This document shows positions 13,274 to 61,710 of a stretch of 64,000 nt of DNA, piece after piece. The position numbers and the translations under genes are program-made. The DNA is from Polytrichum commune. Lineage: Eukaryota; Streptophyta; Polytrichopsida; Polytrichales; Polytrichaceae. Every line of letters starts with the position of its first letter. Within the stretch, counting starts at the first letter, position 1. The notes beneath the pieces were generated by a model, which saw nothing but the letters and a program-made list of their open reading frames with translations, did no database searches and was not told the origin of the DNA. The stretch covers positions 26,556,527 to 26,620,526 of the forward strand of contig OX485808.1 of assembly GCA_950295325.1 (NCBI GenBank), in the 5' to 3' direction.

Positions 13274-13941
13274 CAAATTCATTTTTGGCATCTACGGAAT
13301 CAGTATCGTTCTGAGCAAGTCATGTTCACGGCTTGCCAGCTTGGCTCGGGGGTGATAGGCAGACGTAGGATGTAGATATTATGTACGGCTGAGATACTCC
13401 ACCCCTTCCGTGGCTCCATCGGCTGTTAGTGAAGCTTTATGCTCTTAAGCTCCCTGCAAGCTTTCCTTAGCCGACCTTTGAATAGCTGCAGTGCATTTCT
13501 TAATTTTCTTTCAATCTAGCTTTAGCGCATCAACTTGTGGTATTGTGCTGGTGCAGGTGTTGGCGAAGTTGTTCGCTATAAGTGGGTGTCGAGATGTTGG
13601 GCATGATGACGTCAAGAAGGATGGCTTAATAATCTGGGGTTTTATTTTATAGCGTATCGGCAAGAGCTTGTTGGAAATCCAGTGTGACTTGTTCCAAACA
13701 TTCACAAACAATCTGGCATCAAAGAGTTGTAACCGATGAGTACTCTCTCGTTCAAGTGAGGTAGATCATGGCTTCTACAACTTCTGAACCAAGAGTGCCT
13801 GGGCGAAGGCAATCGCAAGGCAGCAGAAAGATCAGTGGCACTAACATGTGATGGATAAACAGATGCTAATGCCGGCAGAATTTTGACGAGTGCAAAGGAA
13901 AAGTCTTCTCATTTCGAGGTGAAATAAAGCCGTTGGTACAA

Positions 13942-15198
13942 ATGAAGGTGGTTTTGGAATGGCTGCGCAGGTTGCGTTGGTGTACGCAGTTGGATCGTCT
14001 GATTTCCTCAGCCATAGTGATCAGTTTGTTGTCCGTTGTGTCTGCTGCTCAAACTTATGGGACATGCGAATGTGATCAAAACTCGCCTAAAACAAGGGAG
14101 TTGGTGACAACTGTGTGGGGGGGGGGGGGTGCTGTCACCCTCGTTGTGCTCTCCTTTGATTCCTGGGGGGTAGTGAAGACATATGTAAGGGATTCTGCGT
14201 CGACATCGTATAAAGTTATGGAGTACATCACAACTTTCTTTGTGATCATTTTGAATCCGATTCTAATGTTTCTTCAGCTTGTTTGGAAGGCACCGTGGAG
14301 TTATCACATGAGGCGGAGAATCTCTGGGTTTACAGGTTTGTCCTTGTTGTCACCATGGACGAAAGATCCTGCAAAGATCTTATGTTGTTGTGAAGTTGTC
14401 ATCACTGTCCCTACTGTAATTTCAATTCCTGCTAAATTTATTGATGAATCATACATGCCGAGCCTTTCAAAAGCGGTTGTGATTGGTCGTGGACAAGAAG
14501 AATCACGGGAGACCAAAAACATTTGCCTTGGTGATATGGGAAAAGAAGTTTTGTTGCAAATGGATGCTCTTCCTCCATACGATCAACTCACGGCCTTGCA
14601 AGGAAGTTCCGGGTTGGCTACAATTATTTCCGCAGTGCAGAGTATTGGATATATATATGGTGTTGTGTTTCGGACTATACAAGGACTCTCGGTGAGTCCA
14701 ATTGAAGTTGTTGCGTTAACGTTGAGCATACAAATCTTGATCAAGGCTCTCCTACACAATATTGTAAGTACATGTCATAGGTCCCTTCATGTTTATTTGA
14801 CAGATGAGGATGCACTCACTTTTGTAGGTAAGTGCGCAGAATACAAAACAGATGTCGTAATTCCTGACAGTCACGTTGTAGGCCCACCGGTGGTTATGGT
14901 CTTGTTGGTCTCAAGTGTCATGATTTATTACATCATACATATGTGGTAAACAATAAGGAGGATCATGGTTGTCCCAATAATGCTAACACTTGTTGGATTG
15001 CATTTACAACTATGGGCTTACATAGTACTTTGGAATCGTAATTTAATTGCCGGTTCGGCCATTTTACCAATGTGTGCCATGATAAATGCAACGTCATATA
15101 TTTTAGCATTAGTTGTTACAATTAAATATTGGGAGGTTGATAGGTTGAATGTGAAGACTTCTAGCATGTTAGCTCAAATATTTCCATACATTGGTTAA
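13942..15198 (+). pseudogene. Multi-pass membrane protein, copy 1, with premature stop
   Basis: Reading from the ATG at 13942 (shared with the paralog) gives a continuous frame to a TAA at 14947-14949. The same frame resumes straight after it and ends at the same C-terminus as the intact paralog (SSMLAQIFPYIG). At the stop, the intact copy at 23946-25226 has CAA (Gln), so one C-to-T change creates the nonsense codon. The product would be about 335 aa and lose the last two membrane spans. Hydrophobic segments and conserved blocks (SYHMRRR, AVVIGRGQEESRET, SPIEVVALTLSIQIL) match the paralog. A poly-G run near 14115-14128 adds two residues (WGGGG against WGG). Function unknown. A truncated but functional product cannot be excluded. 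Confidence 0.65.
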
Positions 15199-23324: not shown

Positions 23325-23945
23325 CGAAGACTTTTTGGGCAACCGCGGAATCAGGATCGTTCTGAGCAAGTCAAGTCCACGCTTGGCAGCTGGGGTGGGG
23401 GGTGATAGGCAACCGTAGGATGTAGATAGGATGGACGGCCGAGATACTCCACGTCTCCAGTGGCTCCATCGGCTGTTCGTGAAGGTCCGTGCTCTTAAGC
23501 GACGGCCCTGCAACCTTTCCTTGGCCGACCTTCGGATAGCTGCAGCGCATTTCTTTCGAGATAGTCGTAGCGCGTTTCAATCGTGGTATTGCGCTGGTGC
23601 AGGTGTTGTAGTTCGCTATAAGTGGGTATGGAGATGTTGGGCTTAATCTGGGGTTTTATTTTATAGCGTATCGGCGCGCGGCAAGAGCTTGTTGGAAATC
23701 CAGTGTGACTTGTTTCTCAACATTCACAAACGATTGGCCATCAAAGAGCTGTAACTGATGAATACTCTCTCGTTCAAGTGAGCTAGGTCACCGCTACTAC
23801 ATCTTCTGAACCAAGAGTGCATGTCCGAAGTCAATCGCAATCGACATGTGATGAATTAATAGATGCTAATGCGGGCAGAATTTTGACGAGTTCCGAAGGA
23901 AAAAGCATTCGCATCTTGGGGTGAAACAAAGTCGTTGGGATAAAA

Positions 23946-25226
23946 ATGAAGGTGGTTTTGAGTTGGCTGCGCAGGTTGTTGCGTTGGTGTGCGCGCTTGG
24001 ATCTTCTGAATACCTTGGCCGTAGTGATCACGATGTGGTCCTCTGATTTACTCGCCCATAGTGATTTGTTTGTGACTGTTGCTCAAACGTCTGGGATATG
24101 CGAATGTGATCAACTGTGCCCTAAGACAAGGGAGTTGATGACAACTCTTTGGGGCGGTGTTGTCACCCTCTTTGTGCTCTCCTTTGATTCCTGGGAGTTA
24201 ATGAAGTCACAAATGGAGGATGATTCGTCGACATTGGATACAGTTGTGGTATGGTTTGTAGTTATCAATATGATCATTTTAAGTCCGATTGTAATGCTTG
24301 GTGATCTCGTTGGGAATGCGGCATGGAGTTATCACATGAGGCGGAGAGTGCCTGGGTTTACAGTTTTGTCCTTGTTGTTACCATGGACGAAACACCCTGC
24401 AAAGATCGTATGCGGTGGTGAAGTTGTCATCACTGTGTCTTCAGTGTTTTCTATTCCTGACAGCTTTACTGTATCAACCCTGCCGAGGCTTGCTAAAGCG
24501 GTTGTGATTGGTCGTGGACAAGAAGAATCACGGGAGACAAGAAACTTTCGCCTTGGTTATAAGGGAACAGAAGTTTTGTTGCAAATGGATGTTCTTCCTC
24601 CATACGATCAACTCAAGGTCTTGCAAGGAAGTTTTGGATTGGCTACAGTTATATCCGCAGTGCAGAGCACGGGATATATTTATGGTGTTGTGGTTCGGAC
24701 TATACAAGGACTCCCGGTGAGTCCAATTGAAGTTATTGCGTTAATGTTGAGCATACAAATCTTGATCAAGGCTCTCCTACACAATATTGTAAGTACATGT
24801 TATAAGCCCCTTCGTGTTTATTTGACAGATGATGAAGCACAAACTTTTGTAGATCAGTGCGAAAAATACACTGCACATGAAGTTCCTAAGAGTCAGGTTG
24901 TGGGCCCCTCAGTAGTTATGGTCTTGTTGGTGTCAAGTGTGGTGATTTATTACATCGTACATATGTGGCAAACAACGAGGACAATCACGGTTGTCCCAAT
25001 AATGCTAACACTTGTGGGATTCTATTTACAACTAATTACCAGATGGGTATATACTGTGGAAAATCTAGATGAAAACATAAGTGGGTGGATTCTGCAAATG
25101 ACTATCATGTTAAATTTCATATCATATGGTCTTGCATTAGCTGTTACAATTAAATTTTGGAAGGTTGATAGGTTGAATGCGAAAACTTCTAGCATGTTAG
25201 CTCAAATATTTCCATACATTGGTTAA
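23946..25226 (+). CDS. Multi-pass membrane protein, copy 2 (426 aa, unknown family)
   Basis: An uninterrupted 426-codon frame from ATG 23946 to TAA. The start is the ATG conserved with copy 1. The N-terminus is basic and amphipathic (WLRRLLRW). Hydrophobic spans are seen at roughly residues 20-45, 65-85, 103-122, 160-175, 230-250, 262-285, 330-350, 357-376 and 393-415, implying about seven to nine membrane passes. Conserved soluble blocks include a cysteine-rich ICECDQLCPKT (about residue 50), SYHMRRR, and AVVIGRGQEESRET (about 180). A 'SPIEV-x-AL' segment leads into a membrane span, somewhat like multi-pass proteins of filamentous fungi; that resemblance is weak and from memory. No enzyme motif is visible. 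No introns are needed. Confidence 0.65.
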   Translation: MKVVLSWLRRLLRWCARLDLLNTLAVVITMWSSDLLAHSDLFVTVAQTSGICECDQLCPKTRELMTTLWGGVVTLFVLSFDSWELMKSQMEDDSSTLDTVVVWFVVINMIILSPIVMLGDLVGNAAWSYHMRRRVPGFTVLSLLLPWTKHPAKIVCGGEVVITVSSVFSIPDSFTVSTLPRLAKAVVIGRGQEESRETRNFRLGYKGTEVLLQMDVLPPYDQLKVLQGSFGLATVISAVQSTGYIYGVVVRTIQGLPVSPIEVIALMLSIQILIKALLHNIVSTCYKPLRVYLTDDEAQTFVDQCEKYTAHEVPKSQVVGPSVVMVLLVSSVVIYYIVHMWQTTRTITVVPIMLTLVGFYLQLITRWVYTVENLDENISGWILQMTIMLNFISYGLALAVTIKFWKVDRLNAKTSSMLAQIFPYIG

Positions 25227-45174: not shown

Positions 45175-45471
45175 TTAGGCCCTCTTTACACTAGAAACGA
45201 GAAGTCGTGGAGAAAACCGGCCAAGGGCCATGGCTCATTTTTGAGAAGCCAAACTTTGAATTTGACGTCCTTTGGATATAGTGTAAAGTGAGAAGGGGCC
45301 ACAAAATAATGTGCTGATTTTTTTAATATAATTCTAATATAGGGTTGATCGCAACTTCCACTCCACTACCTCTCTTTTCTACCCCAAGACCGGTCTTTCT
45401 TTCTAGTTGTTGGCGGTTTCTTTTGCTTCTTTCTTTCTCGTTTTTGCCTTGTTTACTGAAATTTCAGCACT

Positions 45472-46887
45472 ATGGAGGAGAGGAGGAAGAAGCTTGTGGT
45501 GATGATGGTCTTGTATTGGTGTCTCTACATGATTACGCAGCATGTTAACAACATGCAAGCTTTGATTTTACAAGGTGAGTGGACGAATGTTGCAATTTTC
45601 AGCATTTGCCTTCAAAGTTTAGGGTTTAGAGAGAGAACTGTTTGGAGTTTTGAGAGGCCATCTGGCTTTGTAGACCGGCATTTGTTGGGTTCGTTTACGG
45701 AGAAGATGTTTAAGGAAAGGACTCGTGTCTCGCATGCTACATTCAGATTTTTATGTGAGAAATTAGGTCCGTTTTTTAAAAAACAGCATACTAATTTCAG
45801 AAGACCAATTTCTGTAGAAGAGAGGGTTGCAATGTCTTTGGCTAGACTTGGTACAGGAGATGGGTTGCGTATGGTTGGAGAGGTATATGGGGTGGCGGAA
45901 TGTACAATTTCAAGAATTGTGAGAGAATTTTGTAAAATGGTGAGACTTCATTTGCAAAAGATTTTTATTCAAGTTCCAAATGAAAACAAATTTAGGGTTT
46001 TAGCGAAAGAGTTTGAGAGATTGCATAACATACCTTACATAATAGGAGCCATAGACGGTTCACACATTCCGGTGCTAGCTCCAGTTATTGGTGGAGAAGA
46101 TTATTACTGTCGCAAATCTTTTCATTCGGCTTTGTTGCAAGGAATTGTTGATACCAATTGCATATTTTGGGATTATGAATTCGGGTGGGCTGGAAGCTTG
46201 CATGATTGGACTGTTTTTCAACAAACCAAAGTAGGAAGAGCTTGTATGGAGGGAAGATTTCTACCGTACAAGTTAATTGGAGATGCGGCATATCCGGTTC
46301 GCCCTTGGATGTATTGTCCATTTAAGGGTTGTAATGATGGACTAGAATCTTACAAGGCACATTGGAATTTTATCCAATCTTCAACCCGAATGTGTGTGGA
46401 ACGTGCGTTTGGAATTTTAAAGGGTAGATGGAGAATTATACAAAAAAGAGCAGATGTTTCTTTACGATCAATGGCAAATATTGTATCAACTTGTATTGTT
46501 TTGCATAATTTATGCATCACAACAAATGACAAGTTTGATGTAATATGGATTGAAGAAGCGGATGTGCAATTACATAAACGGGTTGAAGAGGGCACAGTGA
46601 AGGGAGGACAAGTCTTACGAGGAGAACAAGCATCCATTGATGAGGTAAAAACACGCATTTTGAAATCTGGTACTACAAGAACATTTCAAAATTTTGAGCA
46701 AGAAGAAATTGATGCTGAAGAAGAAGTTTTTTTAATCAAACAAAATGAGAAAGATGCTGATTTATTGAGAGAATCTACCATTGCTCATGAATCCATTGCC
46801 AAAACATTGTGGCAATACAATTTGTCAAAGGACTCGACCATTCAATTTTCAGAATCAAGTAGTGATTCTGATATTATGGAAGAATAG
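45472..46887 (+). CDS. PIF/Harbinger DDE transposase (471 aa)
   Basis: An intact single-exon frame. The N-terminal half has a helix-turn-helix-like region (RRPISVEERVAMSLARL, then GVAECTISRIVREFCK) typical of the DDE_Tnp_4 family. The catalytic triad is present: D195 in IGAIDGSHIP, D271 in IGDAAYP, and E310 in CVERAFGILKGRW. The C-terminus carries the VLHNLCI motif and an acidic tail. Start: first in-frame Met of MEERRKK; upstream frames are unrelated. It would cut and paste DNA at the element's inverted repeats with TTA/TAA target preference. Related proteins need a MYB/SANT-like partner for nuclear import or DNA binding. The partner here, encoded convergently, is damaged. All key residues are seen, so catalytic competence is plausible. 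Confidence 0.93.
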   Translation: MEERRKKLVVMMVLYWCLYMITQHVNNMQALILQGEWTNVAIFSICLQSLGFRERTVWSFERPSGFVDRHLLGSFTEKMFKERTRVSHATFRFLCEKLGPFFKKQHTNFRRPISVEERVAMSLARLGTGDGLRMVGEVYGVAECTISRIVREFCKMVRLHLQKIFIQVPNENKFRVLAKEFERLHNIPYIIGAIDGSHIPVLAPVIGGEDYYCRKSFHSALLQGIVDTNCIFWDYEFGWAGSLHDWTVFQQTKVGRACMEGRFLPYKLIGDAAYPVRPWMYCPFKGCNDGLESYKAHWNFIQSSTRMCVERAFGILKGRWRIIQKRADVSLRSMANIVSTCIVLHNLCITTNDKFDVIWIEEADVQLHKRVEEGTVKGGQVLRGEQASIDEVKTRILKSGTTRTFQNFEQEEIDAEEEVFLIKQNEKDADLLRESTIAHESIAKTLWQYNLSKDSTIQFSESSSDSDIMEE

Positions 46888-48347
46888 CTACAAATTTTCT
46901 AGAATTGCTGCCATATGCCTATCCATGTTCTTCAATAAAGCTGTGCTTTCTTGAAAAGTTGTAAGAAAGCTAGAAGAATTTGAGACAACCTTTTCCAAAA
47001 TGATTTCCAAATTTTCTTGGAATTTTTTCTTTTTCTTCTCTTGTTTTGGAGTAACCTCACGATCTTGCAAATCTGATGGTGTTTTGTCTTCATCGTTTTC
47101 ATCTTCACCTTCAGTGGCACTTGCTGGAATTTGGTTCTTTACACATGCACGTGTAGAATTCCAGACATCCAGTTGGTCAAACTACTTACAGTCTTGATGC
47201 CTATCCGAACCAGAAATCTCATTGGCCCTCTTGTCATTTTTGTACTCTGCGTAAATGGTTTTGTACTTCTTCTTGCATGATTCCCATGAGCGGTCAAAGC
47301 CACGAATGGCCGCCACCATCCTTGCTTGCAATTTTAACCATGTATTAATCCCTGAAATTTTACATTATAAGTCATTAGTGCAATTATATACAAGCATATG
47401 ATAGTGAAAACGTCCAGAAAATGTCAAAAAAACAACCGAAAGGCCCTCAAGAATGCAGACAGCATAGGTAGTGACCGGAAAAACCCATAATGTTCGTCAA
47501 GACACGTGTATGACTCATTTCTGCCGGGTATAAACCCCCCCCCCCCCCCCCCGGTTGAGAGTTGGCCGTAGAGCCTAGAAAGGGCACTTGGCAGGTAAGG
47601 ACCAATGGACTAGGGGAAAAAAACTATGGTGGAGTTGGCCGTAGAGCCTAGAAAATGCATTTGGCAGGTAAGGACCCATAGACTTGGGAAGAAAGCTAGG
47701 TAGGCCAATTCCTGGTTGAAGCTTTGAAAATTTATGAAAACCATTCATGTGTACAAAAAATTATAGAACCAAAAAATAAAACACATATACAAACCTTGTT
47801 TTTTTGCACATCTTGAAAATTCTTCTTCCATCTCTCCCCGAATTGATATCAAGGTTTCAACCTCGTAATCTTGCCACTTCCGACTTGCATTTTCTTCTTC
47901 CGAATCTGAACCAGCCAAATTCACCACTTCTTTTGTTGCCTTCTTTGTTGTGATCTTCATTTTCTTCTTCTTTGCTGGAGCATTTGTTTTTCCTCCTTTT
48001 GGTGGTCGTCCTCTCTTCTTTACTACAGGTACATCTTCTCCATTTAGTGCCTTTACTGCAGCCCGGATTGCCTCCTCCTCCTTCATATCCATCAAGTAAT
48101 TTCTTGCATTTGAACTCGGTGTCACTTCCTCACTTGATGGTTGCAAATCTGAACCATTACAAGGAGGCATTTCAAGAGGCATAAAATATCTAGGACTACC
48201 AGTACCAAAATGATCAAAATTTGAAACATGCATTTGAGGAGAAATGGGCTGAAATTGGGGTTGAGAGTAGCTCATCCAAGGCGAATTTTGACTCCATGCT
48301 TGTTCTTGAGATTAAGAGAATTCTCCATCTTGGGAGTAGCCTTCCAT
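46888..48347 (-). pseudogene. Harbinger MYB/SANT-like accessory protein, two nonsense codons
   Basis: Two exons, 48347-47795 and 47351-46888, join in phase across a GT-AG intron (KKQ-G/INTWLKLQ). Exon 1 codes a Gln/Pro-rich N-terminus, a basic NLS-like stretch (VKKRGRPPKGG, AKKKKMKI), then the start of a trihelix MYB/SANT-like domain (KWQDYEVETLISIRGEMEEEF). Exon 2 continues it (WESCKKKYKTIYAEYKNDK) and ends in a Lys-rich coiled helix. There is a TAA at 48314-48312, 11 codons after the likely original ATG (48347); the surrounding frame continues and a later ATG (48275) could rescue it. A TAG at 47184-47182 replaces Trp of the conserved CKWFD motif. The second stop removes the domain end, so the protein is probably inactive. 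Confidence 0.82.
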
Positions 48348-48922: not shown

Positions 48923-50840
48923 GTACCACTTAGTAAAAATTAAAGCCTTCACTAATTTGAGATCTGGCAAAATAGTGTGTGTTTTGGGGTTTAGTACTGT
49001 GCATACTAAATTGGATAATAAGTGCAACAACATAATCATTGGTTTTCATCAAACGATTTTAGAAACATTTTACTGTTGATAAAAATACTAATTGATTTGG
49101 CCCCTCAAGTAGGGTAATATTTTTTGCCTGGCAAACCCTTGGTCCAACCGATGTGCAAATGAGCAATTTCTCTCCTCTTCAATTTATTACTCCTCTTTAC
49201 ATCCCTTTACCTTCGCATATTCCGGCACAACTACTACAAATGTGAAGAACATGTTTAGTTCAACTCTAGTGTTGAAATCTAGATTTTGAAATGTATGTGT
49301 ACAGAGTATGCCCAAACATAATAATCGAAACTTTAATGATTAAGCAATTCGGATTTCATCATAAAGGGCATAAGCCATCTCCAACTTTAGGTTGTCAATA
49401 AAATTACATGGCAAAATGGACAATATGAAGACCATACTAAGAACTGATTACTTTTCTACGTGCATGGTAATAGAGCAATACCCTTGTGTTATGCCGCCAA
49501 CAATAGGATCAATACCTTAATTCCAAACCTCAATAAGAATTGGTGGGTTAATTGTTTACACACACGGTGATAGGTCCAATACCCTACCTCCCAACTTTGG
49601 TAATAGGATCAGTACCATCCTTCATAGCTGTACTAAATGTTACTCACACGTCTACCCACCTTCCCAATGTCGGTACTAGGCTTGGTACCATACTTTGTAA
49701 ATCATAACCATACTAAAAGGGTCATTTACATTACCAAGGTGGTTGTGGTTGTGGTCGTGGTTAACCATCACATTCAATCACAATTTTATTTTATTTTCAT
49801 TCACATTTGTCTTGTGTAAATCCTTGTAGTTGTGGTTGACGGTGGGTTGGTTTTTTAAACCACAATCTATCATTGGTTAGGCCTTGAGGCTCAAGAGGAA
49901 ATTCAATTGATTATTATCCTCACTGGCTTTGGATTGTAATGTGAAAGTGGTTGCCTCCTCAACTCTCTCCCCAAACCCTAGTCTTAAGATTCTCTGATGA
50001 TGCCACATGAGCATGAATAACCACCCCAAGGGTGGTTTACCATGCGGAGAAAAGGGAGTTGATGAAAATAGACCACTATTTTTTTTAATATAAAAGACCT
50101 CAACCACAACCATAACAACTACCACCCCTATAGTAAATGACCCTTATGCACTAATTTCTTGTCTAGATGCACGGTGATACGTATAGGTCTATATATGGTG
50201 ATATCCTCAGTTATAGGTTCAATACCATAAGTTCGGATCCATATAAAGTAGAGGCTCCCATAACCGATCACTCAAGAAATTGTGTGCAAGATTTGGAGGA
50301 GTATAAGGTGATACACATTTTTCCTATGTAGGAAGATAGAAATCAAGAGGACCACAATTTTTTTGGTAATTTTATTCCTTAAATTGGAAATCTGTGAAAA
50401 TATGAAACCAAGAGTTGGCCCGAACATATACCAATGTCTAGAATCTACCATAACTGCTCATTCCTCTTCACTTTAGCACTCAAAACCAAGACATGTGTCA
50501 TGGCACGATTGGTAGAGCCTAATCTAAATTTAATCCCAGCCTGTTCAAAATCGAAATTTAGTCTCAAGCCGATCGAAATTCCAGTACTCTATATATTGCT
50601 GATGGGGTCCTGATCGGGAATAGGCACCTCTACTATAAGTAAGCATTTATTAGTTGTGGAAACGAGCGGTGATAGGTCCTGTACCCCACTTCCCATCCTC
50701 GGTAACGGGTTCGGCACCATTTCTCGTAACTGATGGGACTTCTCTTCGTCTCCTCTCGTGAATCCTGTGCGCGCAATCCTGCACGTGAAGTGTCACGAAT
50801 TCTTTCTGCAATTCGCAGTGGTACTTGCGAGGTAGGGATG
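48923..50840. other. Spacer upstream of the FYR-domain gene
   Basis: No gene. A recurring phrase built on 'ggtgataggtcc', 'ataccc', 'ggtaataggatc' and 'agtacc' appears between 49440 and 50720. A tRNA-like box A (tggcacgattggtagagc, about 50500) with a weak box B (gttcaaaatc, about 50547) may mark a degenerate SINE. Confidence 0.4.
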
Positions 50841-50849
50841 ACTGGAGAA

Positions 50850-51175
50850 TTGCGATGGAGATGTGGCAGGGAGCTGCGGTGATTGATTTGAGGCAATTTA
50901 GGTGGCGGTAATGTGGTGCGATGTGTTGGTGATGGTGCAATTGGACGAGACGGTCGGGGAGGGAGACGGGAAGTTAGGGTTTGGCGGGTGATTGAGGTAG
51001 GGTCGATTGGGAAATTGCGTTGGAGCTATGGCAGGGAGCAGCGGTGCTTGATTGGGGCCAATTGAGGTAGCGGCAATGTGGTGCGATGTGTTGGTGACGG
51101 TGCGATCGGACGAGACGGTCAGGGAGGGAGATGGGAGATTAGGGTTTGGCTGGTGATTGTTGCGTTGCGGAAGCA
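50850..51175. repeat. 165-bp tandem duplication in the 5' region of the FYR-domain gene
   Basis: The word atgtggtgcgatgtgttggtga is at 50911 and again at 51076, and flanking sequence (gacgagacggtc, gggagggagaygggar, ttagggtttggc) aligns over the whole period. It lies immediately upstream of the predicted ATG at 51183 and is probably promoter or 5' UTR. Confidence 0.8.
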
Positions 51176-51182
51176 AGGGGAG

Positions 51183-54100
51183 ATGGAGGACGCGATGGAG
51201 GGGTACCCGGTGCAGCCACGGCGCTACGGGGTTTTGAAGAAGAAGAAGAAGGCGGAGGAGGCGGAGGGAGGGGTAGGATTCGGAAAAGGAATAGGAATAG
51301 GAATAGGAATAGGAATGGGGATGGGGATGGGGATGGGGATGGGGGAGAGTGTAGTTGTGCCTGCGCCCCGGTTTGGCGTTTTGAAGAAGAAGAAGATGCT
51401 TGAGGTGGAGCGTATTGAGCCTCCACCACCTCAGCCCACGTTTGATGCTCCGCGGTTTGGTGTGCTGAAGAAGAGGAAGGCGCCGAAACCTGCGAGGCCG
51501 AATCTGGTGCTGGCCACAGGTAGGCAGGCAGCTGGTCTGATATTTGGAATATGAGTTTTGGTAGGTTGATGTTGTTGTCAAATACCATACTAAGTTGAGT
51601 CCTAATTTTACATGAATTATGATTGGGTTGGTAAAAAACCTGGGAATTCGGGGACTAATTCCTGGTGAGACAAATAGGCCGCAGGTACGAATTTTAGATG
51701 TGGAATTATCGATTTGTATAAAAGAAGGGAACACTAAAGAGTAATCAGTCATAATCGCAAACCAATACTTCATATCAGCCCCTGTTTTGGAATTAGGGAT
51801 AACAAAAAGAATAATGCTTCCTAACATGGACACTAGAATTTATTGATGTGGTGTGTGAATGCTAATGATGAATTACTGTTTGATGTGTCGGACAGTGGAT
51901 GATTCAGCCACGGAATCGGAAGGGGATGGCAATGACGGCGGCAGTATGCTGACGGTGGTTCCGCCGACCAGAACCGCTAAACGAGAGCCGCGGGAGCCCC
52001 GGGCCAAGGGTGTACTGAAGCGGAAACTGGTTGCTAGTGAGGGTCAGAGCAGAAAAGTAATGCGAACTTCATCTCCTCCTGCTGATCACCTCCTTCCTGT
52101 CGTTGTTGTGGAGGTGCAGCAGCCAAAAGGTGCAGTAATTTCAATTCAAGAAATGGAGAAAAATAGAAACATGGCAGTGTATTATACAGGACCTATAACT
52201 TAGGAGAATCCTTATATGTTGCTTTCATAGAGTATAGTTCAGTGCAACCAACCCCCTCCCATATTTTTTTCTCTTGAATGAGGGTGCCAAGGCTAAACCC
52301 TTACAATGAGTTAATGGAAATTGTGAGGTGAAGTGGACTAAATTCTAATGAAGAAGTACAGCATATGTTATAGCCGAACAACCCTCAGTGGTACATAATC
52401 TTGTGGATGTGGAGGGGCTAAAAATCCCTATGCAACACACTGTGAAGTCATAGAGGAATTCAAGTTATTTAGATATGTGGTCAGTGTGTGTCACATCTGT
52501 TCTTTACCTATCGTATAAAAGCAGAGGCTTTCTTTGGAAACTGTTGGCATGTAGGTGCTGCTAAAGCAAGTCCAAGCTACTATTATGGGGGACATGCAAT
52601 GCTAGTATCTAGAATACATGGCAGTTTCTTGATGCAAGGTTTCTAACCTACTCGGATGTTGCAGCTGCTGATAGAAGGAAAGCAATGATCAAAGAGCTTG
52701 CCGCAACATATCGTAATGAGTGTCAAACTTACTGCAGGCAGCTTCTACTTCTTCAACGTCAATGGCGACAGGTTTGAGTCCATTGCAATCTCACTTTTTT
52801 CTAATTTAATCTTAACATGTCTCTTGGCAATGCTGCACAGCCTAATTCACAACCTGATTAACCCATGAACGACTCAATATTACATTATTGCAACAGAAGT
52901 CCAAGTGACAAGACACTTTTTAGTATGTGTAGTGAAGGTTTGCAGTGCTGTGTTGCTGAATTCTTGAGCTGATTAGAGTGACAGTGGTCCCTAAACTGCC
53001 ATTGCAGGATTTATAATTAAATTGTGAGCTGACTCTTTGCAAATGGCTACTCTGCCTATTGAGGATATTCTCTATGTTTATTCCATAGCTCCTTTTCAGC
53101 AATATGTCCACTTGGTATCAGTTGCATTCCGGTTAATAATCTTTATTGCTGTAGTAGACATACTGTATCTATTGTCTTTGGCTCAATCTCTTGAAGAATT
53201 GAAGTTATTAAGTTTATTATCAAGGCATTCAAATCTAGTTTTGCTCCAGCTATTTTCAGGATGGTCGATTATGTCTATAGAAAGTGTTGCCAGGTAGTTG
53301 TCACATTGCATAACCATGTTACATGTCTATAGTTTAAAATGGCTGACTGCCAGAACCCACTAACATGTGTCTTTTGCATTATTCACTAATTAGAATTAGA
53401 ATTAGAATTAGAATGACCCTTGTAATCTAATTCTACATTATTGTCGATGGAAGACCCTTGTTTAGTGGAGAGGTCAATTTTGCTGCAGTGTTTCCTGATT
53501 TGAGAGTCGTAATTACTCTCTTCCTTCATTGATTGTTATAGCTAAAACAATAAATTACCAAGTTTGCAAATCAAATTGTAATATCTAATTATCTCTGGTG
53601 GTTGTTGCATATCAGCAAGAGATTCCTATACTTCCTCAAGCACAACCAGATGCTGAAAGTACTCGTGGATTGCCTCTGCGTAAGAAGGACGGGCCCCGTA
53701 GATTGGGTGCAGCTGGACGTAAATCACTCAAATCAAATGCAAACAACTCTGCAGTCAACTCAGAAGGTTCGTGACTCCAGAAAATCGTATTCTGTTTGTT
53801 CTAAATTGAGTGATATGCAGTGGTTGCTGAACAGTGACATGGGACTGTAATAAGTCCGCTGTTCACTAAAGTGGATGTTTGTGCAGAGAATGATGATGCT
53901 CCAGTACAATTGGTGAATGGGAAGATGCCATTACGCAGGAGGGTGGCATGGCGAGCTAATGAACGAGAGTCTCTGCGTCGAGGGCTTATGATGTTTGGAT
54001 TGGGCAGATCAGAGAAAGTTAGAAGTATCATGCGAACAATGCTGAAACTTACTCGTCACGGTCTTGGTGACATAGCAGACTGTTGCTGGGAATTTGTGCG

Positions 54101-57100
54101 ATGTTGTGGGGTCCTGGCAGAGCCTAAAGAGAAGGAGTATGCTGAGAAACGCCTACAAGATGCAAAGGAACAAGGCATTGAGATGGGTAAGAGTTGAAAT
54201 ATTGGTAAATGGTTTAGAGTATTTTGGCCCTATTGTACCAGTAGGAAAGCCTACTACACTGATAGAGTTTGTCCAGTCTGATCTTATGCTTTGAAATGTT
54301 ATTGGCAGTGGTTCAGTGTTGGAGAACACTGTGAGGCCATTTGAACCTAATTGTCTTCCGGTTAATATTAAGCTACAGGTATGGTTGAAGTGAGTATATT
54401 TATTGTCTGCATGAAAGGAGACATGTGCAGAGTGCAGACCAACCTGAAAGTCTGTCATCATAACCTTCCACTCTTTTAATTTGATGTTGCAAACTGTTAG
54501 ATATCATTTTCTGTCTATTTGATTCAGGTCCAGAAGTAACTGAGCGAGTTGGTGAATGGGACAAAATGGAAAAGAATTCCTCAGTTTGGCTGAAGCGTCT
54601 GAAGCTTCTAGACAGCCTTGCTGATGTGGTCAGGATCTGTGCAAACAAAGAGACTCGAGAGGCTGCATATAGAGCTATCGATCTTCTTAGAGATGCCAGT
54701 GTTCCCAATGAAGGTTGGGGAAGAGAGGCAGACTTGGCTTTGCTGGCTGGAGTTTACAAGCATGGCTTTGGCAATTACGAGGCCTTGCGCAAAGATGAAC
54801 AGTTTGCAGAGGCTTTCGAGAGAGTCTTCCACACACCTGCAGTAAGTGATTACTGGTCACATATCCCTCAACATTATCGACCTTGAATTGCCAGAGGTTC
54901 TTCGATTGAGGAGTGATTAGTAATTGTAATGTAGGAGGTTGAGCAGCATGCAAATTTGAATATTTAGAGCCCTCAACCTTTGCAGATCTATGGATAGGGT
55001 CTAGCATCATCCTGTATCTTTGCAGATCTAGCAGAGGTCTTCCTTAAAGATGATGAAGGTTGGTAGAGTCAATTCAAATTGTAATCCTTGTATGTGTATT
55101 ATGCTCATGAGGCTAGTATGTTCAACCAGGAATGTATTAGACTTTCGTTGACCTTTTCGGACACTCAAGCACCATTCATCTTATGCTTTTTTCGCAAAGG
55201 ACCCAGGGTCCAAATGTTTTCTAGGAGTCCCAGATTGCCAATGTACTGGAATTCACATTCTTGTCATAGGGTTAGTCAGCGATATGATTAAATTGAGGAT
55301 TATGTTTCAGTGAGAGTGGCACAAGAATGAATGTGCTTCTGAATGTACTGATTTCTCAGGATCGTGGAGACAGTGGGGGGGATGATACGGACCCACAATC
55401 ATCGAGCAGGTATGATATGCTTAGAACCAACTCTCTACCATGTTGTGATTTGTCCAGTTTTCAAGTAAGGTCAGGTGATTCCTGAATGACTAGGAATTTT
55501 TCCATTTCTGAAAGTCACAATGTGATGTTTCTTTTGTGTTGGTTTTGTGTAAGGGAAACTGGTGTACTTATCTACTGTAATTGAGTCCTGGTTGATGTGA
55601 TTTTCCAGTTGTGCCAACATTCTCAAGAAAGCAATTGGTTTTTTTGTGATGCAGAGAAAAACCAGAATGGCCGGATGCCAATACTTTGACCCGCAGGCTC
55701 AAGCGTCTAGTGGATCATGTGACTCGAGTTGGTCAACAGGTGATCATGCTGCTATTGAAGATGTGCAATAATTTATATGGTTCACATAACTAAAATCTTA
55801 TCTTAGGCACCAATGAACTTTAATGGGTCTATGTTTAGTGTTTCTCCCCTTTTGTGTGTTCTTGTAGGGCCCTGATTATTCTGTTCAATGAACTATGAGG
55901 TTGGTGGATTACCTATGCAGAACCAGGAAAATAAAATTTTGCTACAAGTATTTTTGAGTAGTTATAGTGGTAGCTTTCTTGTTTCTGCTATTATCGCACA
56001 CTTGTGTAAGCAGTTTCTGCTTCAAATTAATTTCAGCATTTTCTTTTACCAAAGGTGGCAGTCCAGTGAGCCCTGTATAGATAAGTTTGGATAAGTTAGA
56101 TAGGGGTGCATAGCATGCTGGGTATTCATATTAGGCTGTGTTTTTTGGAGTAAGTGGGTGACCTCTGCAGAATTAACTTTTGGATGACCAACTATTACCT
56201 GTCCTGAAATAAACATTGTGATGCTTTTGCAGGTCCACAAAGTACAGAAGGTTGCAGAAAGTCCACAAGTGCCACGATCACTGAAATGGAGTAAAAGAGA
56301 CAAGATGGAGTTTCTGAGACAACTGATGCGATGGGGTTTGCCATTGGTATCTTCCATAACAGACTTGATTTTGAATGTTGGGAGGTGCATTGCATCTATG
56401 AAAATAAATTTTGTGTTTGTCCTATTTACTATGTTAGGTCCCCTTTACACTAGACCTCGAGTTGAGAGCTTAAACTTGTTCTTTTCAAGAGTTTGATGCT
56501 TGGATTTGACAAGCTTTCATCTAAAGCTCAAACTTTTGAGGGGTTGACCAATCTTCTAGCTCCCAAGAGTTTGAGCAAGTTTAAAGTGGAGAGGCTTAAA
56601 GTGAGATATAAAGGGGGATTGATAGTGATCAAAAGAGAATCTATGACAAGTTAAAGAATGCTTGAAAGCCTGTTGGCTTGGGACCCACAAAATGAGAGCT
56701 TGAACTTTCAATATTCTCAAGCGACCTCCATTGAGGTAACTAGCTTAGGATTTTGACTGAGAGCTTGTTGTAGTTGTTCCAGAGGGGATCCATGAAGGTG
56801 CCATCTAAGCTTTGTAAGCCTGGTAAAAAGTTGTAGTTCTCAAGTTGTAAGCTCAAGTATAAAGTGGATTTGAATGAACAAGCGTGAGTTAAGAGGCTCC
56901 TCACCAATGAGAAGGCTCCTTCTTCAAGCTCCCCTGCTTCACTCAGCCTCTTGCATGACAAAGAATGTTATGGACAATACTGGCTAGAGCCAAGTCTTTT
57001 TTTCGAGCGTTACACCAGAAAAACATGTAGCATTTTAGTTTGCAGCTCTGAAATCCATGTTTTGGAATGGAGTAACAACTATGGGGGTTGGTGTCTTGTG

Positions 57101-60100
57101 ACAGGCACCAGGGAGAGCTAAAGTCAGGTGGCAACAATTGACTGAGAAATCAACGAATGCCTCATTCAAGAAGAGGAATGACAGCAGTCTGGAAGCTTGT
57201 TACCGTGATATTTTCAGGGAAATGAAGCAGCTTGTTGATGGCCCTGATGTTTACGCAGAGGATGGTGTGGAGAAGGCGAATGGAAAGGTAATTTTTTGTC
57301 CTAGGATGCTTTTTGTGTTTCTGCTTCTACCTTGATTTCAAACTAAGACTTGAGGTGCATGAGGACTGCATCAGTCAAAGGTAGATGTGCCAAATTCGGT
57401 TGCTGAACTCAATCACACATCTATATCTGAGTGGTATGTGGTTAGTTGTAGCTCCAAGAACGGACCCCTAAAAGACGTGTTTAAAAGGGATTGGACTATG
57501 TGCTCAAAATATAATAACCATTCTAGGCCCCATAGTCAACATACTTGGGGGGACATATGTGACCGTTTAATGAGCACAAGAATCTTTACTTTGATAATGA
57601 ATAAAGGTACAAGCTCCGACAATTGTTAGGAAAGCGGCTACAATCTGATTACTAAACATCTTGTACTAATCATGTGTTTCATATCCTAGGAGAAGCGGCT
57701 TATTGGAAGAAGTAACCATTTAAGTCCCATCTACCTTAGTATTGTCCTTGTAGTAGATTGTATCTCATCTGGTTATGGGTTTTAAGGAAATGCAAGCGTA
57801 ACCCCTGTATGCCTGGGGGTTCAGAGGTGAGAAAGAGACCGCATCCATATGGTTGGAATACAATAAATCAAATAAACTTGGATCTTTGATTAGGTTGGCT
57901 AAAAATATGAGTTTCATAACTTGGTGGGAAAAGCCAAAAATATTCATGTCTGTAACCTTGTTACTTTCCTCAAATTGCACATTTTCTATTAAAGAAAGCA
58001 TTGAGGGTTCCAGCCGCTTTGAGTCCATAATTATATTGGTAATATATGATTTCAATGGATTTGTTCAAGGTGGTGTAGAGCTGTATTAGTTGCAAGCCCT
58101 CAGGGGAAATTTTTAAAAACAAAATCTTAAAAATCATAACATGGCCTTGAGAAAATGTCTTTGAAAAAGGCTTGCAACCACTTCTTGGCTTCTTTTGCTA
58201 TTTAGGGTGAAGGAAGCATTTGATAATGTATGCTTACTGACCAGGAGGTATTCCATTATACTGGCCTTACTACCTGTTTGCTCTATTTTTCGGACAGCGG
58301 AAGAGGAACTCAGGTGCCAAGAAGCCTTCTGCAAAGGGCCAAGTCGTTAATCTGCTTGAACAAGGGGCACTAAGCCCCAACGCGCCTCAAGAACCTGTTG
58401 GACCTTCTATTCTGAACGAGAAGAGTGCGGTAGGTGTTCTTTTGGTTGTTGCATTTGTTTTGTACCGTTTTTCATGTGATCATCTGTCTTCAAGACCTGG
58501 CTGTTTCCTTCACAGCACTTTGCAGAGGTTGGGGATTGTTTAGAGACTGACAAGTTCAAAAGAACCAATATGTGTGGTTTTTAACTTCAGAAAGTTTCTT
58601 TGGAACAATGGCTGGGTGTTTTATAGGGGAGATTGAAAGAGAGGTTGGAGCTTCTTGATACGTTGCGGCAGGTGCCCGAGTCGTTACAAGATGATGATTG
58701 GGATACTCTAGGCCTTGCCTTACATCACGGCCATGACATGCCAGTGTGGTGGGAAGCTGGCATTCACGACAATTCTCTCATAAAGGTATCAATGGGAGCC
58801 TTTGTGGAGTGAATTGATGTTGGTTGAGCATCCTCATTTGTTGTAGACATCTTGGTCATCTTTTTCCATTTGTGGTTCCCTGCTGAATTCTGTTTCTCTT
58901 TGTCACACGATTCTCTACAGGGGGTCCTGGCACATGGGTATGGATTTTGGGATGACATTTTTGCTGACGACACTTTGGAATTCCCAGATGATATTGGTGA
59001 GTATGGTCTTTAATTTGCAACCCAGTTACTAGACATTGAAATTGCGAGCCTACTCTAGGCCAGCCACGTAATGGTAGGATAGACCACATTGTACTTGCTG
59101 CTAGCACAATTCTTTAGATATTGAAAGTTTAGCGTTTACTTATGACTGTCATCCTATGAATGATTTTAGGGGAATGTTGTGAAGCGACAATTTTTTTGAG
59201 AGGACAGACAATGACTGCCCACATTAAGAGTTAGTATGTTTTATTCTATTTGTTGATCACGGTTGTATTCTGCTTCACATGTTAAATGAGCTCGAAATTG
59301 GGCACATTGATATGTTTAGCAATTTAAGGAAGACATACCACTGACTTGGAACCAAGTTTGTCAACTTCTGTGCTGGACACTTTGTACATCTGAATTAAAG
59401 GATCCTCCTTTCGTTTGTTCCTGTGTAGAGCATCTCGTTCCATGTTTCATGACTCTTGAATTTGTTTGCTGTTTCTGCAGCCGGAAGGGAAGCCGAAGAT
59501 GGTCTATCACAGTCTGCCAAACCGACACCGAAAGCGTGCCTGAAGAGAGTGAAGTTTATTGTAAACAACTTGCGGCGTTATTTGCGGAAACTTAAGGTAC
59601 TGGATTCCCTCTCTCATGTTGATTGATTTCTCATTGCAAGGAATTGTCAACCATGTTCTGACCGTTGCCATCTGCTTCTTGTGCAGGTGCTGCAACCTAC
59701 GCGACGGAAGCGACTGGCTCCTGAGGGAAAGGAGCCCAAGGAACCAAAGGAGCTGAAGGAGCCAAAGCGTTTCAAATATGCACGTGCCGTGGAAGTTCCG
59801 AGGGACGATGATAGCAGGCCGATCCTTCCACTGGTCTTGACCGATCGGCTTGCACTCGTTGATCTCGTAAGTCATACGTTAAACTCGTTTTGCACACAAG
59901 GAGAGATAGAATGTGTAAATATAGATCATACAATATTAAAATTATTGAGAAGTGATAACCTAGTAGTGGCTCTGGTCTCTGCCAACTGTGAATCCAACAT
60001 CCACTGTCTGTGTTGGATGAACAGGGAAGAATAGAGCCGGATCGGCCCGGGTTTCATACAGAACGCCACATTTTTCCAATTGGATTCACCACTCTCAGGG

Positions 60101-61453
60101 ATCATGCAAGCATGGTGGATCCGAATGGACGAACGCAGTACACATGCATCATCATCGACAGTGGCGGTCCTGGCCCTCTGTTTCGTGTGATTCCAGAAGA
60201 TGATCCCGACCTAGTTATAGAGAAAGATTCAGCCTCTGGTGCGTGGGTGGTGGTATGTGCAGCTGTGAATAGAGTGCGGGGCATCGATCGTGAGAAGGTT
60301 TGTTTACACATTTTTGCCTCTGTTGTGATAATTGTCCTGTCATTCTGCTGTTTTTTAGGTTGTAAGAGCTCCTCTCTAGAGTCTACCTATGGACCACTTT
60401 ACACTAAAGCTGAGGCCCGTGACCATGAAATTGTGAGGGCCCTCGAAGCTCATCCGAAGGCTGTACTGTGGAACATTGAAATCAAATCTTGTGTGGTCAC
60501 GGCCTTCAATTGTAGTGTAAAGACATACACAAATGAGTTCTCAATAGAATGCTATATCATTACCATCCCATTCACTTGGACCCTTCTACACAATAGATTT
60601 TGATAAATCTAGGGTATGAGATTATGAAGTGTCATGGTCTTCTGGTTTTGTGTTAGACCCACCTCTATGAGGTGGGCTTGACTCAAAATCCGGTAGACCA
60701 TGAAATGATACCCATTGCATGCCATGTAGGACTCCATGTAGGTTTTCCATCCATTCAAACTTCCTTGGTTTCGTAGGATCTCAAGCTCTAGTGTAAAGTG
60801 AAGTGGGACGGTCCCAGCTTTTTCTACCTGTGAGTGGTTTCTTAGATTTCATTAATCATGGGCCTTCAAGCTCAAGTGTAAAGTGCCCCTAAGACTCGGC
60901 CCATTCTGATGTAAACATATGTAATGGGGCTTTGCAGGTGACTGTGAGTGGAACGGAGATGTTTGGATTGTCCCATCCTGAGGTCTGCCGGTTAATACAG
61001 GAGTTACCTGGTGCGGAGTTATGCAGGAATTTCCGACCGGAGCTGTCTTTCTCACGTTTCGGACCCCAAGTGGTTGCAAGACCGATTGGTGAAGACCACG
61101 GTGCATTTTTGCATCCAGAAAGCCCTCCAAGCCGTGACTTGGACCGAGGATTTGGAGGAAGGAGGCTGACGAATCCCTACTTGCATCCTGAGGTGGATGA
61201 AGGTGGAAGGGACGAGATGCCTCTGGCACTGTGGCATGTCAACAAAGCCAGAGAGGGGTCGAAAGGAAAGGGACTCTTTCATACCCCAATGTCACATCAA
61301 TATCGTGGACATCACCAGTCTCTGGATTTTGATGACAGGGCAGAGGAGGAAGAGGAGGAAGAGGAGGAGGAAGACGTGGAGGTGGATGCTGAGGAAAATG
61401 AAGAAGATAACAATGGGGATGGAGATGGAGAAAGCACAGAAGATGATGACTAG
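51183..61453 (+). CDS. Chromatin-associated protein: CHD6-9 C-terminal-like modules plus FYRN-FYRC
   Basis: A 17-exon gene predicted to encode 1108 aa. Exons: 51183-51519, 51896-52129, 52665-52771, 53616-53766, 53887-54186, 54528-54841, 55360-55409, 55655-55739, 56233-56346, 57105-57287, 58298-58429, 58627-58785, 58921-58996, 59481-59596, 59687-59866, 60025-60297, 60938-61453. Every junction is GT-AG and keeps phase. Residues 15-156 hold four [RK]-x-GVLK[KR] basic motifs around a Gly-Ile/Gly-Met run. Residues 285-480 have a SANT-like 'RANERESLRRGLMMFGLGR' segment and a 'READLALLAGVYKHGFGNY' segment. Residues 540-745 have WSKRDKMEFLRQL, ESLEACY-like spacing, WWEAGIHDNSLIKG and AHGYGFWDD. Their order matches the part of CHD6-9 remodelers after the helicase. 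Residues 850-980 form FYRN and FYRC (MVDPNGRTQYTC, GTEMFGLSHPEVCRLIQELPGAE). The acidic tail is Glu/Asp-rich. No ATPase or chromodomain is present. Probable nuclear chromatin or transcription factor; substrate unknown. Confidence 0.85.
51285..51350 (+). repeat. Coding hexanucleotide microsatellite (GGAATA)n (GGGGAT)n
   Basis: Perfect hexamer runs inside exon 1 encode alternating Gly-Ile then Gly-Met dipeptides (residues about 36-54). Because the unit is 6 bp, length changes would keep frame. Confidence 0.9.
56437..56868. mobile_element. Possible degraded Harbinger MITE in an intron
   Basis: The left end GGTCCCCTTTACACTAGA (56437), preceded by TTA, matches the TIR core of the other Harbinger elements. 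A weak inverted match (ctcaagtataaagtgga) ends near 56868. Interior is rich in 'gagagctt' and 'caagctc' words. Right boundary and target duplication unsure. It sits between exons 9 and 10 of the FYR-domain gene. Confidence 0.45.
60391..60889. mobile_element. Harbinger-type MITE, about 0.5 kb, in an intron of the FYR-domain gene
   Basis: The left end GGACCACTTTACACTAAAGC and the inverted right end (GGGGCACTTTACACTTGAGC) align for about 38 bases including a shared GGCCC..ATGAAAT stretch. The right flank is TAA while the left is TAT, so one copy of the target site may have mutated. An internal palindrome around 60640-60705 (gacccacctc/gaggtgggct core) is related to that of the full-length element at 45178-48919, suggesting a deletion derivative of that family. 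It lies between exons 16 and 17. Confidence 0.7.
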
Positions 61454-61710
61454 ATAAGAAAGATATCAATTGATGATCCATTCCATCAATCTTTGAAGCA
61501 TTCCATCTGCATCCCAATGTTCCACAACCCAATGTAAAAGTAGCATCGTGAACATCATCAGTCTCTGGATTTCGACGATGGGGCAGAGGAGGGAAAGGAA
61601 GAGTAAGAGGTGGAGGAAAATGAAGAAGATAACAATGGGGATGGTGGAGAAAGCAAGGAAGAAGATGACTAGGTAGCCAAAAACTTTTCAGATTATAACC
61701 CATCCCACAT
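61454..61710 (+). repeat. Duplicated 3' coding/UTR segment of the FYR-domain gene
   Basis: The sequence around 61480-61710 repeats 61260-61500: the agtctctggattt, gaagataacaatggggatgg and catcaatctttgaagcat words recur with an offset of about 220-245 bases. The second copy has lost the acidic reading frame (a TAA appears in the Glu-rich part), so it is now 3' UTR or spacer. Confidence 0.7.

Follow-up and report, generated by a model that had tools for sequence, protein, structure and literature searches.

A moss protein combining a CHD6-9-type module array with TBRG1-type FYR domains, in a genome that encodes CHD7-subfamily ATPases

We describe a gene in a 64-kb stretch of the Polytrichum commune genome (the window; C6:26556527-26620526, in a genome of 408 Mb held nearly entirely in seven large contigs) that lies at window positions 51183-61453 on the forward strand. 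Its predicted protein carries the series of modules that follows the ATPase in the chromatin remodelers CHD6-9 (CHD subfamily III, or CHD-III) and then a FYRN-FYRC pair of the TBRG1 type, with no ATPase of its own, a bare architecture in which we have high confidence. The same genome encodes two chromo-ATPases of the CHD7 subfamily on another contig, C5, and these are the first candidates for partners of the window protein.

Rebuilt from the sequence, the gene has 17 exons that encode 1108 amino acids, with GT-AG borders at every intron and agreeing phases. A codon score built from five further genes of the same genome is highest in the modelled frame for 17 of 17 exons (from +0.22 to +0.64 bits per codon; introns average -0.58), and each exon outscores its two other frames and the introns. 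The SLIDE2 module spans the exon 12-13 junction and FYRN-FYRC spans exons 15-16-17, and those splices are therefore also supported by homology. The parts of the gene are listed here in window coordinates.

51183-51519, 51896-52129, 52665-52771, 53616-53766, 53887-54186, 54528-54841, 55360-55409, 55655-55739, 56233-56346, forward strand: exons 1-9 (splice sites, phases, coding score)
57105-57287, 58298-58429, 58627-58785, 58921-58996, 59481-59596, 59687-59866, 60025-60297, 60938-61453, forward strand: exons 10-17 (splice sites, phases, coding score)
51219..52029, forward strand: basic N-terminal region in which a short motif occurs four times, as RRYGVLKKKK, PRFGVLKKKK, PRFGVLKKRK and AKGVLKRKL, at residues 13, 62, 90 and 147 (sequence)
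53943..54092, forward strand: exon 5 segment resembling SANT1, residues ~296-345 (shuffle z of 5.6 to 7.5 with SANT1 of the C5 CHD-III protein)
54581..54841, forward strand: SLIDE-like module 1, exon 6, residues 395-481 (Pfam PF23588, shuffle z, yeast Chd1 chains)
55668..55739, forward strand: linker helix WPDANTLTRRLKRL, exon 8, with CHD7 counterpart WPNTSTLTTRLRRL (z 8.0 against CHD7)
56239..57230, forward strand: SANT2, the CHD6-9 tri-helical domain, exons 9-10, residues 529-606 (Pfam PF23078, shuffle z)
58627..58996, forward strand: SLIDE-like module 2 with MPVWWEAGIHDNSLIKGVLAHGYGFW, exons 12-13, the motif lying across the splice (Pfam PF08074, shuffle z)
59825..60159, forward strand: FYRN, exons 15-16, residues 833-891 (Pfam E 9.7e-18; TBRG1 structure 2wzo)
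60172..61039, forward strand: FYRC, exons 16-17, residues 896-971 (Pfam E 8.2e-22)
61319..61450, forward strand: acidic C-terminal tail (sequence)

Pfam places HTH_CHD1_Hrp3 (437-469), HTH_CHD6-9 (529-606), CHDCT2 (715-742), FYRN (833-891) and FYRC (896-971) along the protein in that order, and residues ~395-760 are homologous, in collinear order, to the part of CHD6-9 that follows the ATPase: SLIDE-like module 1, the W-P...LTxRLxRL linker, the tri-helical SANT2 and SLIDE-like module 2. The CHD references used for comparison (the human CHD7 C-terminal region, CHD4, CHD1 and others) are provisional sequences, not database records. Pfam confirmed one of them, the CHD7 C-terminal part, in which it found HTH_CHD6-9 at 145.7 bits, two BRK domains and, in unchanged order, the three CHD families seen in the window protein. 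In Smith-Waterman alignments with shuffles, the whole core scored 209 against CHD7 (z 31), compared with 70 against CHD4 and 81 against CHD1. SLIDE-like module 1, with the core W-G-R-E-A-D-L-A-L-L-A-G-V-Y-K-H-G at 437-469, matched HTH_CHD1_Hrp3 in two stretches (E 1.3e-16), gave z 14.5 against CHD7, 11.4 against CHD1 and 9.3 against CHD4, and found the yeast Chd1 chains 3ted and 2xb0 (E 0.003). SLIDE-like module 2 (PF08074, E 2.5e-7) followed the same trend, at z 13.7, 7.7 and 7.0 against CHD7, CHD4 and CHD1, respectively. SANT2 matched PF23078 at E 1.2e-4 and 22.3 bits, under the curated cut-off of 27, and gave z 8.5 against CHD7 and 2.9 against CHD4; a search of the organism's own genome with PF23078 returned sub-threshold matches only. 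Against CHD4 and CHD1, the linker and SANT2 reached no clear significance segment by segment, the linker helix giving no signal at all in the shuffle test. Because the CHD7 scores far exceed those of CHD4 and CHD1, we assign the module series, on sequence grounds, to the CHD6-9 type and not to the CHD1 or Mi-2 type. The first SANT appears weak by itself: in the same test, the SANT1-like segment alone was not significant against CHD7 (z 0.8), CHD4 or CHD1, and its support comes through the genome's own CHD-III protein. No Pfam match to a chromodomain, an SNF2 ATPase or BRK was found in the window protein, nor any SNF2 match within the 64-kb window, the nearest on the contig being ~1.6 Mb off.

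Among solved structures, the FYR part is best matched by TBRG1 (2wzo), aligned over residues 830-970 at E 1.8e-25. It is 39% identical to human TBRG1 over 141 residues and 41% to the FYR of a separate, short TBRG1-like gene on contig C7 (C7:41516156-41520275, reverse strand; loci L003 and L006), compared with 33% to the genome's ATX-type FYR, which belongs to an ATX-type methyltransferase gene on C4. We thus read the FYRN and FYRC as adjacent, complete and of the TBRG1 type rather than the ATX/trithorax type. The C7 gene, itself 41% identical to human TBRG1 over FYR and nearer to TBRG1 than to ATX, has no CHD modules detectable in the 4.1 kb read. By Pfam, the window protein differs from the TBRG1 family, whose members are short proteins without other folded domains. 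The initial annotation of this stretch, which had proposed a phase-consistent 17-exon model, a full FYRN-FYRC pair and no ATPase, agrees with these results. Its in-order series of SANT-like and WWE-G-HD/HG-type segments survives as a CHD6-9 module series in Pfam and shuffle tests, with similarity to CHD6-9 present in residues 280-750, except that the first SANT is weak when taken alone; of the trithorax/KDM5-type proteins and TBRG1, which it names for FYR domains, the 2wzo match and the identities point to TBRG1 and not to trithorax/KDM5.

Both CHD7-subfamily chromo-ATPases lie on the reverse strand of C5, at C5:27334495-27343235 and C5:42061156-42068099 (loci L063, L075, L076, L077 and L079), with intact Walker A and DEAH motifs. 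The first, modelled in 23 exons, comprises at least 1385 amino acids with a chromodomain and a complete SNF2 ATPase, followed by a SANT1 that has diverged, SLIDE1 (LPDWWGKQEDADLLKAAHLYGHKFFKRM) and linker (MPSDSVLSSRLKKLLEAL); BRK gave no Pfam match. When the SNF2 loci of the genome were sorted by reference class, the one best matched by CHD7 was this locus (C5:27.34 Mb). Against the provisional references, its helicase shares 52-53% identity with CHD7 and CHD8, 45% with CHD4 and 44% with CHD1; it groups with CHD7 and CHD8 at 100/100 in a maximum-likelihood tree of ten sequences, and the approximately unbiased (AU) test rejects its placement with CHD3 (p 5e-4) or CHD1 (p 9e-5). In a PDB search, its best solved relatives were CHD1 and CHD4, with no CHD6-9 chain among the 60 matches listed. 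The second copy (42.06 Mb) is 41-91% identical to the first per exon, high in the ATPase and about 40% around SANT1, a pattern that selection on the ATPase would produce; it is assigned by scores only, with a summed 515 bits to CHD7 and 387 to CHD1 or CHD4. SANT1-SLIDE1-linker is kept in both, and SANT2-SLIDE2 was undetected in either, in the stretches read 3' of SLIDE1, where short diverged exons could escape. The top CHD7 tblastn match in the genome, C5:33306769, proved to be a PHD-chromo gene of the CHR4 type (subfamily II) and not a CHD-III gene. A motif of the form R-F/Y-G/S-V-L-K-K/T-K occurs four times in the window protein, three of the copies being close and the fourth degenerate, and once, at residue 1347, in the C5:27.33 Mb ATPase model; it is possible that this RFxVLK-type motif is a shared binding motif, or that it recurs by chance, and it is too short to serve as evidence.

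Plants are said to hold only the Chd1 and Mi-2 subfamilies, without type III CHDs (PMC4036436, PMC5378177), and the initial annotation had likewise placed plant CHDs in other subfamilies. Because two CHD7-subfamily ATPases were found, the published absence breaks down in this genome. That Tetrahymena has a Chd7-subfamily protein (PMC9786623) fits an old origin with losses. The further suggestion of the initial annotation, that the protein is a split-off CHD-III module or the partner of a separate ATPase, gains from the presence of the two ATPases in the genome, while a physical partnership is a prediction.

In animal CHD6-9 proteins the SANT-SLIDE array sits in cis, in one chain with the motor. 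From the architecture of the window protein we infer a different arrangement, in which it would be a nuclear, non-catalytic subunit whose middle forms a CHD-III array, SANT1-SLIDE1-linker-SANT2-SLIDE2, for binding DNA or nucleosomes, and whose TBRG1-type FYRN-FYRC fold would anchor it to chromatin or within a complex. Most likely it would act in trans, its SANT-SLIDE modules gripping linker DNA to assist an ATPase. The first candidates for this partner are the two C5 ATPases, which are of the same class, reside in the same genome and showed no SANT2-SLIDE2 in the stretches read. Such a protein probably arose from a copy of a CHD-III gene that shed the chromodomain and ATPase regions and fused with a TBRG1-like gene. 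Other FYR proteins are known to associate with remodelers: TBRG1 co-purifies substoichiometrically with human INO80 (PMC10954555) and is found with INO80 and B-WICH in mouse embryonic stem cells (PMC5557939), and FYRP belongs to the ISWI complex of Trypanosoma brucei (PMC4646403). A literature search found no on-point paper on TBRG1 together with CHD8, or on FYR and CHD7 in plants.

The window protein resembles, but does not duplicate, several known systems. It shares with CHD subfamily III (CHD6-9, Kismet, Dictyostelium ChdC and Tetrahymena Chd7) the order of the post-ATPase array, namely SANT1, SLIDE1 (WW-D/E-x-x-x-D..LL.GV.KHG), W-P...LTxRLxRL, tri-helical SANT2 and SLIDE2, yet it is without chromodomains, SNF2 ATPase and BRK and has FYRN-FYRC added. 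Its adjacent FYRN-FYRC is of the same type as in TBRG1 (NIAM), whereas TBRG1 lacks SANT-SLIDE modules and its short relative in this genome is a separate gene. T. brucei FYRP, likened here by description and not by sequence, is similarly an FYR protein tied to a chromatin remodeler, although a CHD array is unreported there. Like MOM1 of plants, again by description, the window protein is CHD-derived with the remodeler function lost; MOM1 is not known to carry an FYR. Unlike the window protein, MOM1 derives from CHD3 (subfamily II) and is without a conserved Helicase_C domain (PMC4036436).

Taken as a whole, we consider a non-catalytic remodeler subunit with CHD-III ATPase partners a tentative proposal, its probability falling a little short of even, and several observations weigh against it. 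Among plants the search covered this genome only. The reliance on provisional references, with the CHD7 C-terminal part as the one portion checked in Pfam, applies here as well, and structure models from single sequences were too poor for use (AlphaFold pLDDT of 60 for exon 6 and 57 for exon 5; a Foldseek search with the exon 6 model returned nothing usable). The C5 ATPases retain module 1, so that the proteins overlap and there is no clean split, and their SANT2-SLIDE2 may be too diverged, or lie on exons too short, to have been caught by the search. Finally, a TBRG1-type FYR indicates INO80 as much as a CHD. It is more doubtful that mosses have a split CHD-III remodeler, in which the ATPase chain ends after the first SANT-SLIDE and the FYR protein supplies the full double array in trans.

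That the FYR pair finds its best structural match in TBRG1, which associates with INO80 (PMC10954555, PMC5557939), gives some weight, if rather little, to the main rival, the idea that the gene encodes a plant TBRG1-class subunit of INO80, or of another non-CHD remodeler, that gained a CHD-III DNA-binding array and guides INO80 in place of a CHD ATPase. The short TBRG1-like gene at C7:41516156-41520275 is, however, a better candidate for the INO80 role, and the window protein's folded portion is mostly CHD-III and not TBRG1. It is improbable that the protein acts by itself, with no ATPase stably bound, as a scaffold on DNA or nucleosomes or as a competitor that obstructs remodelers: those FYR proteins whose partners are known occur in remodeler or methyltransferase assemblies, even though the missing catalytic domain (Pfam), the long basic N-terminus and the acidic tail would suit such a role.

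Two further alternatives concern the gene itself. Splices 13-14 and 14-15 are spanned by no homologous domain, and the exon joins were read from genomic DNA, such that the model could have merged two adjacent genes, of which exons 1-13/14 would form a short CHD-III tail gene and the rest an FYR gene. Yet residues 708-875 contain no Met, the nearest ones being residue 707 and, in mid-FYRN, residue 876. These exons thus offer no start codon to an FYR gene standing by itself; moreover, exon 14 scores as coding in the frame that joins the two parts, its splice sites are canonical and exons 13 and 15 are only about 0.7 kb apart. A separate FYR gene is thus unlikely, and we give the merger very little credence. 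Least probable, to the point of being hardly credible, is that a once complete CHD-III gene survives here as a decaying pseudogene. The ATPase half is missing and SANT1 has diverged, as decay would predict, but there are 17 intact, in-phase exons with coding bias, the motifs are conserved across splice junctions and the FYR fold is complete.

Several other features of the window and genome were observed. Directly 5' of the start codon lie two 165-bp tandem copies, 85% identical (50829-51158), probably in the promoter or 5' leader, and 3' of the stop codon is a diverged, stop-interrupted duplicate (61520-61669; 77-81%) of the last exon's final part (61277-61422). Upstream, an intact-looking open reading frame for a PIF/Harbinger-type transposase (DDE_Tnp_4) occupies 45460-46884, and a Myb/SANT-like frame on the opposite strand (47748-48311) may be its partner. 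Two related open frames, at 13870-14946 and 23925-25223 (359 and 433 amino acids), are membrane-protein-like with no convincing Pfam match and are probably paralogues. The window also holds an exon for a BFA1-like chloroplast protein. Elsewhere, two single-exon SNF2-like copies about 98 kb apart (C2:48901070-48902530 and C2:48999703-49001172; L049 and L050) have identical match scores, which suggests that they were duplicated recently or belong to a mobile element. Among the LEAFY loci of the genome, one has a DNA-binding part nearest to Physcomitrium LEAFY (4bhk, E 6.5e-32), with other LEAFY chains ranking behind; together with the BFA1-like exon this points to a land plant, and most likely to a moss.

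Altogether, two CHD7-type ATPases and a motor-less, FYR-fused relative in a plant genome contradict both reviews and primary papers. If the arrangement is general in mosses, the CHD7 family would date deeper and would have been lost within plants, rather than being an invention of animals and amoebae, and mosses would offer a natural separation of the motor and the DNA-binding array in the CHD7/CHD8 family. CHD7 is mutated in CHARGE syndrome, and CHD8 in autism. The gene fusion ties FYR/TBRG1 to the CHD-III system and suggests a possible link of TBRG1 with CHD6-9 in animals. If true, the split remodeler would be a natural two-subunit form of the single-chain animal remodeler, in a kingdom said to lack it.

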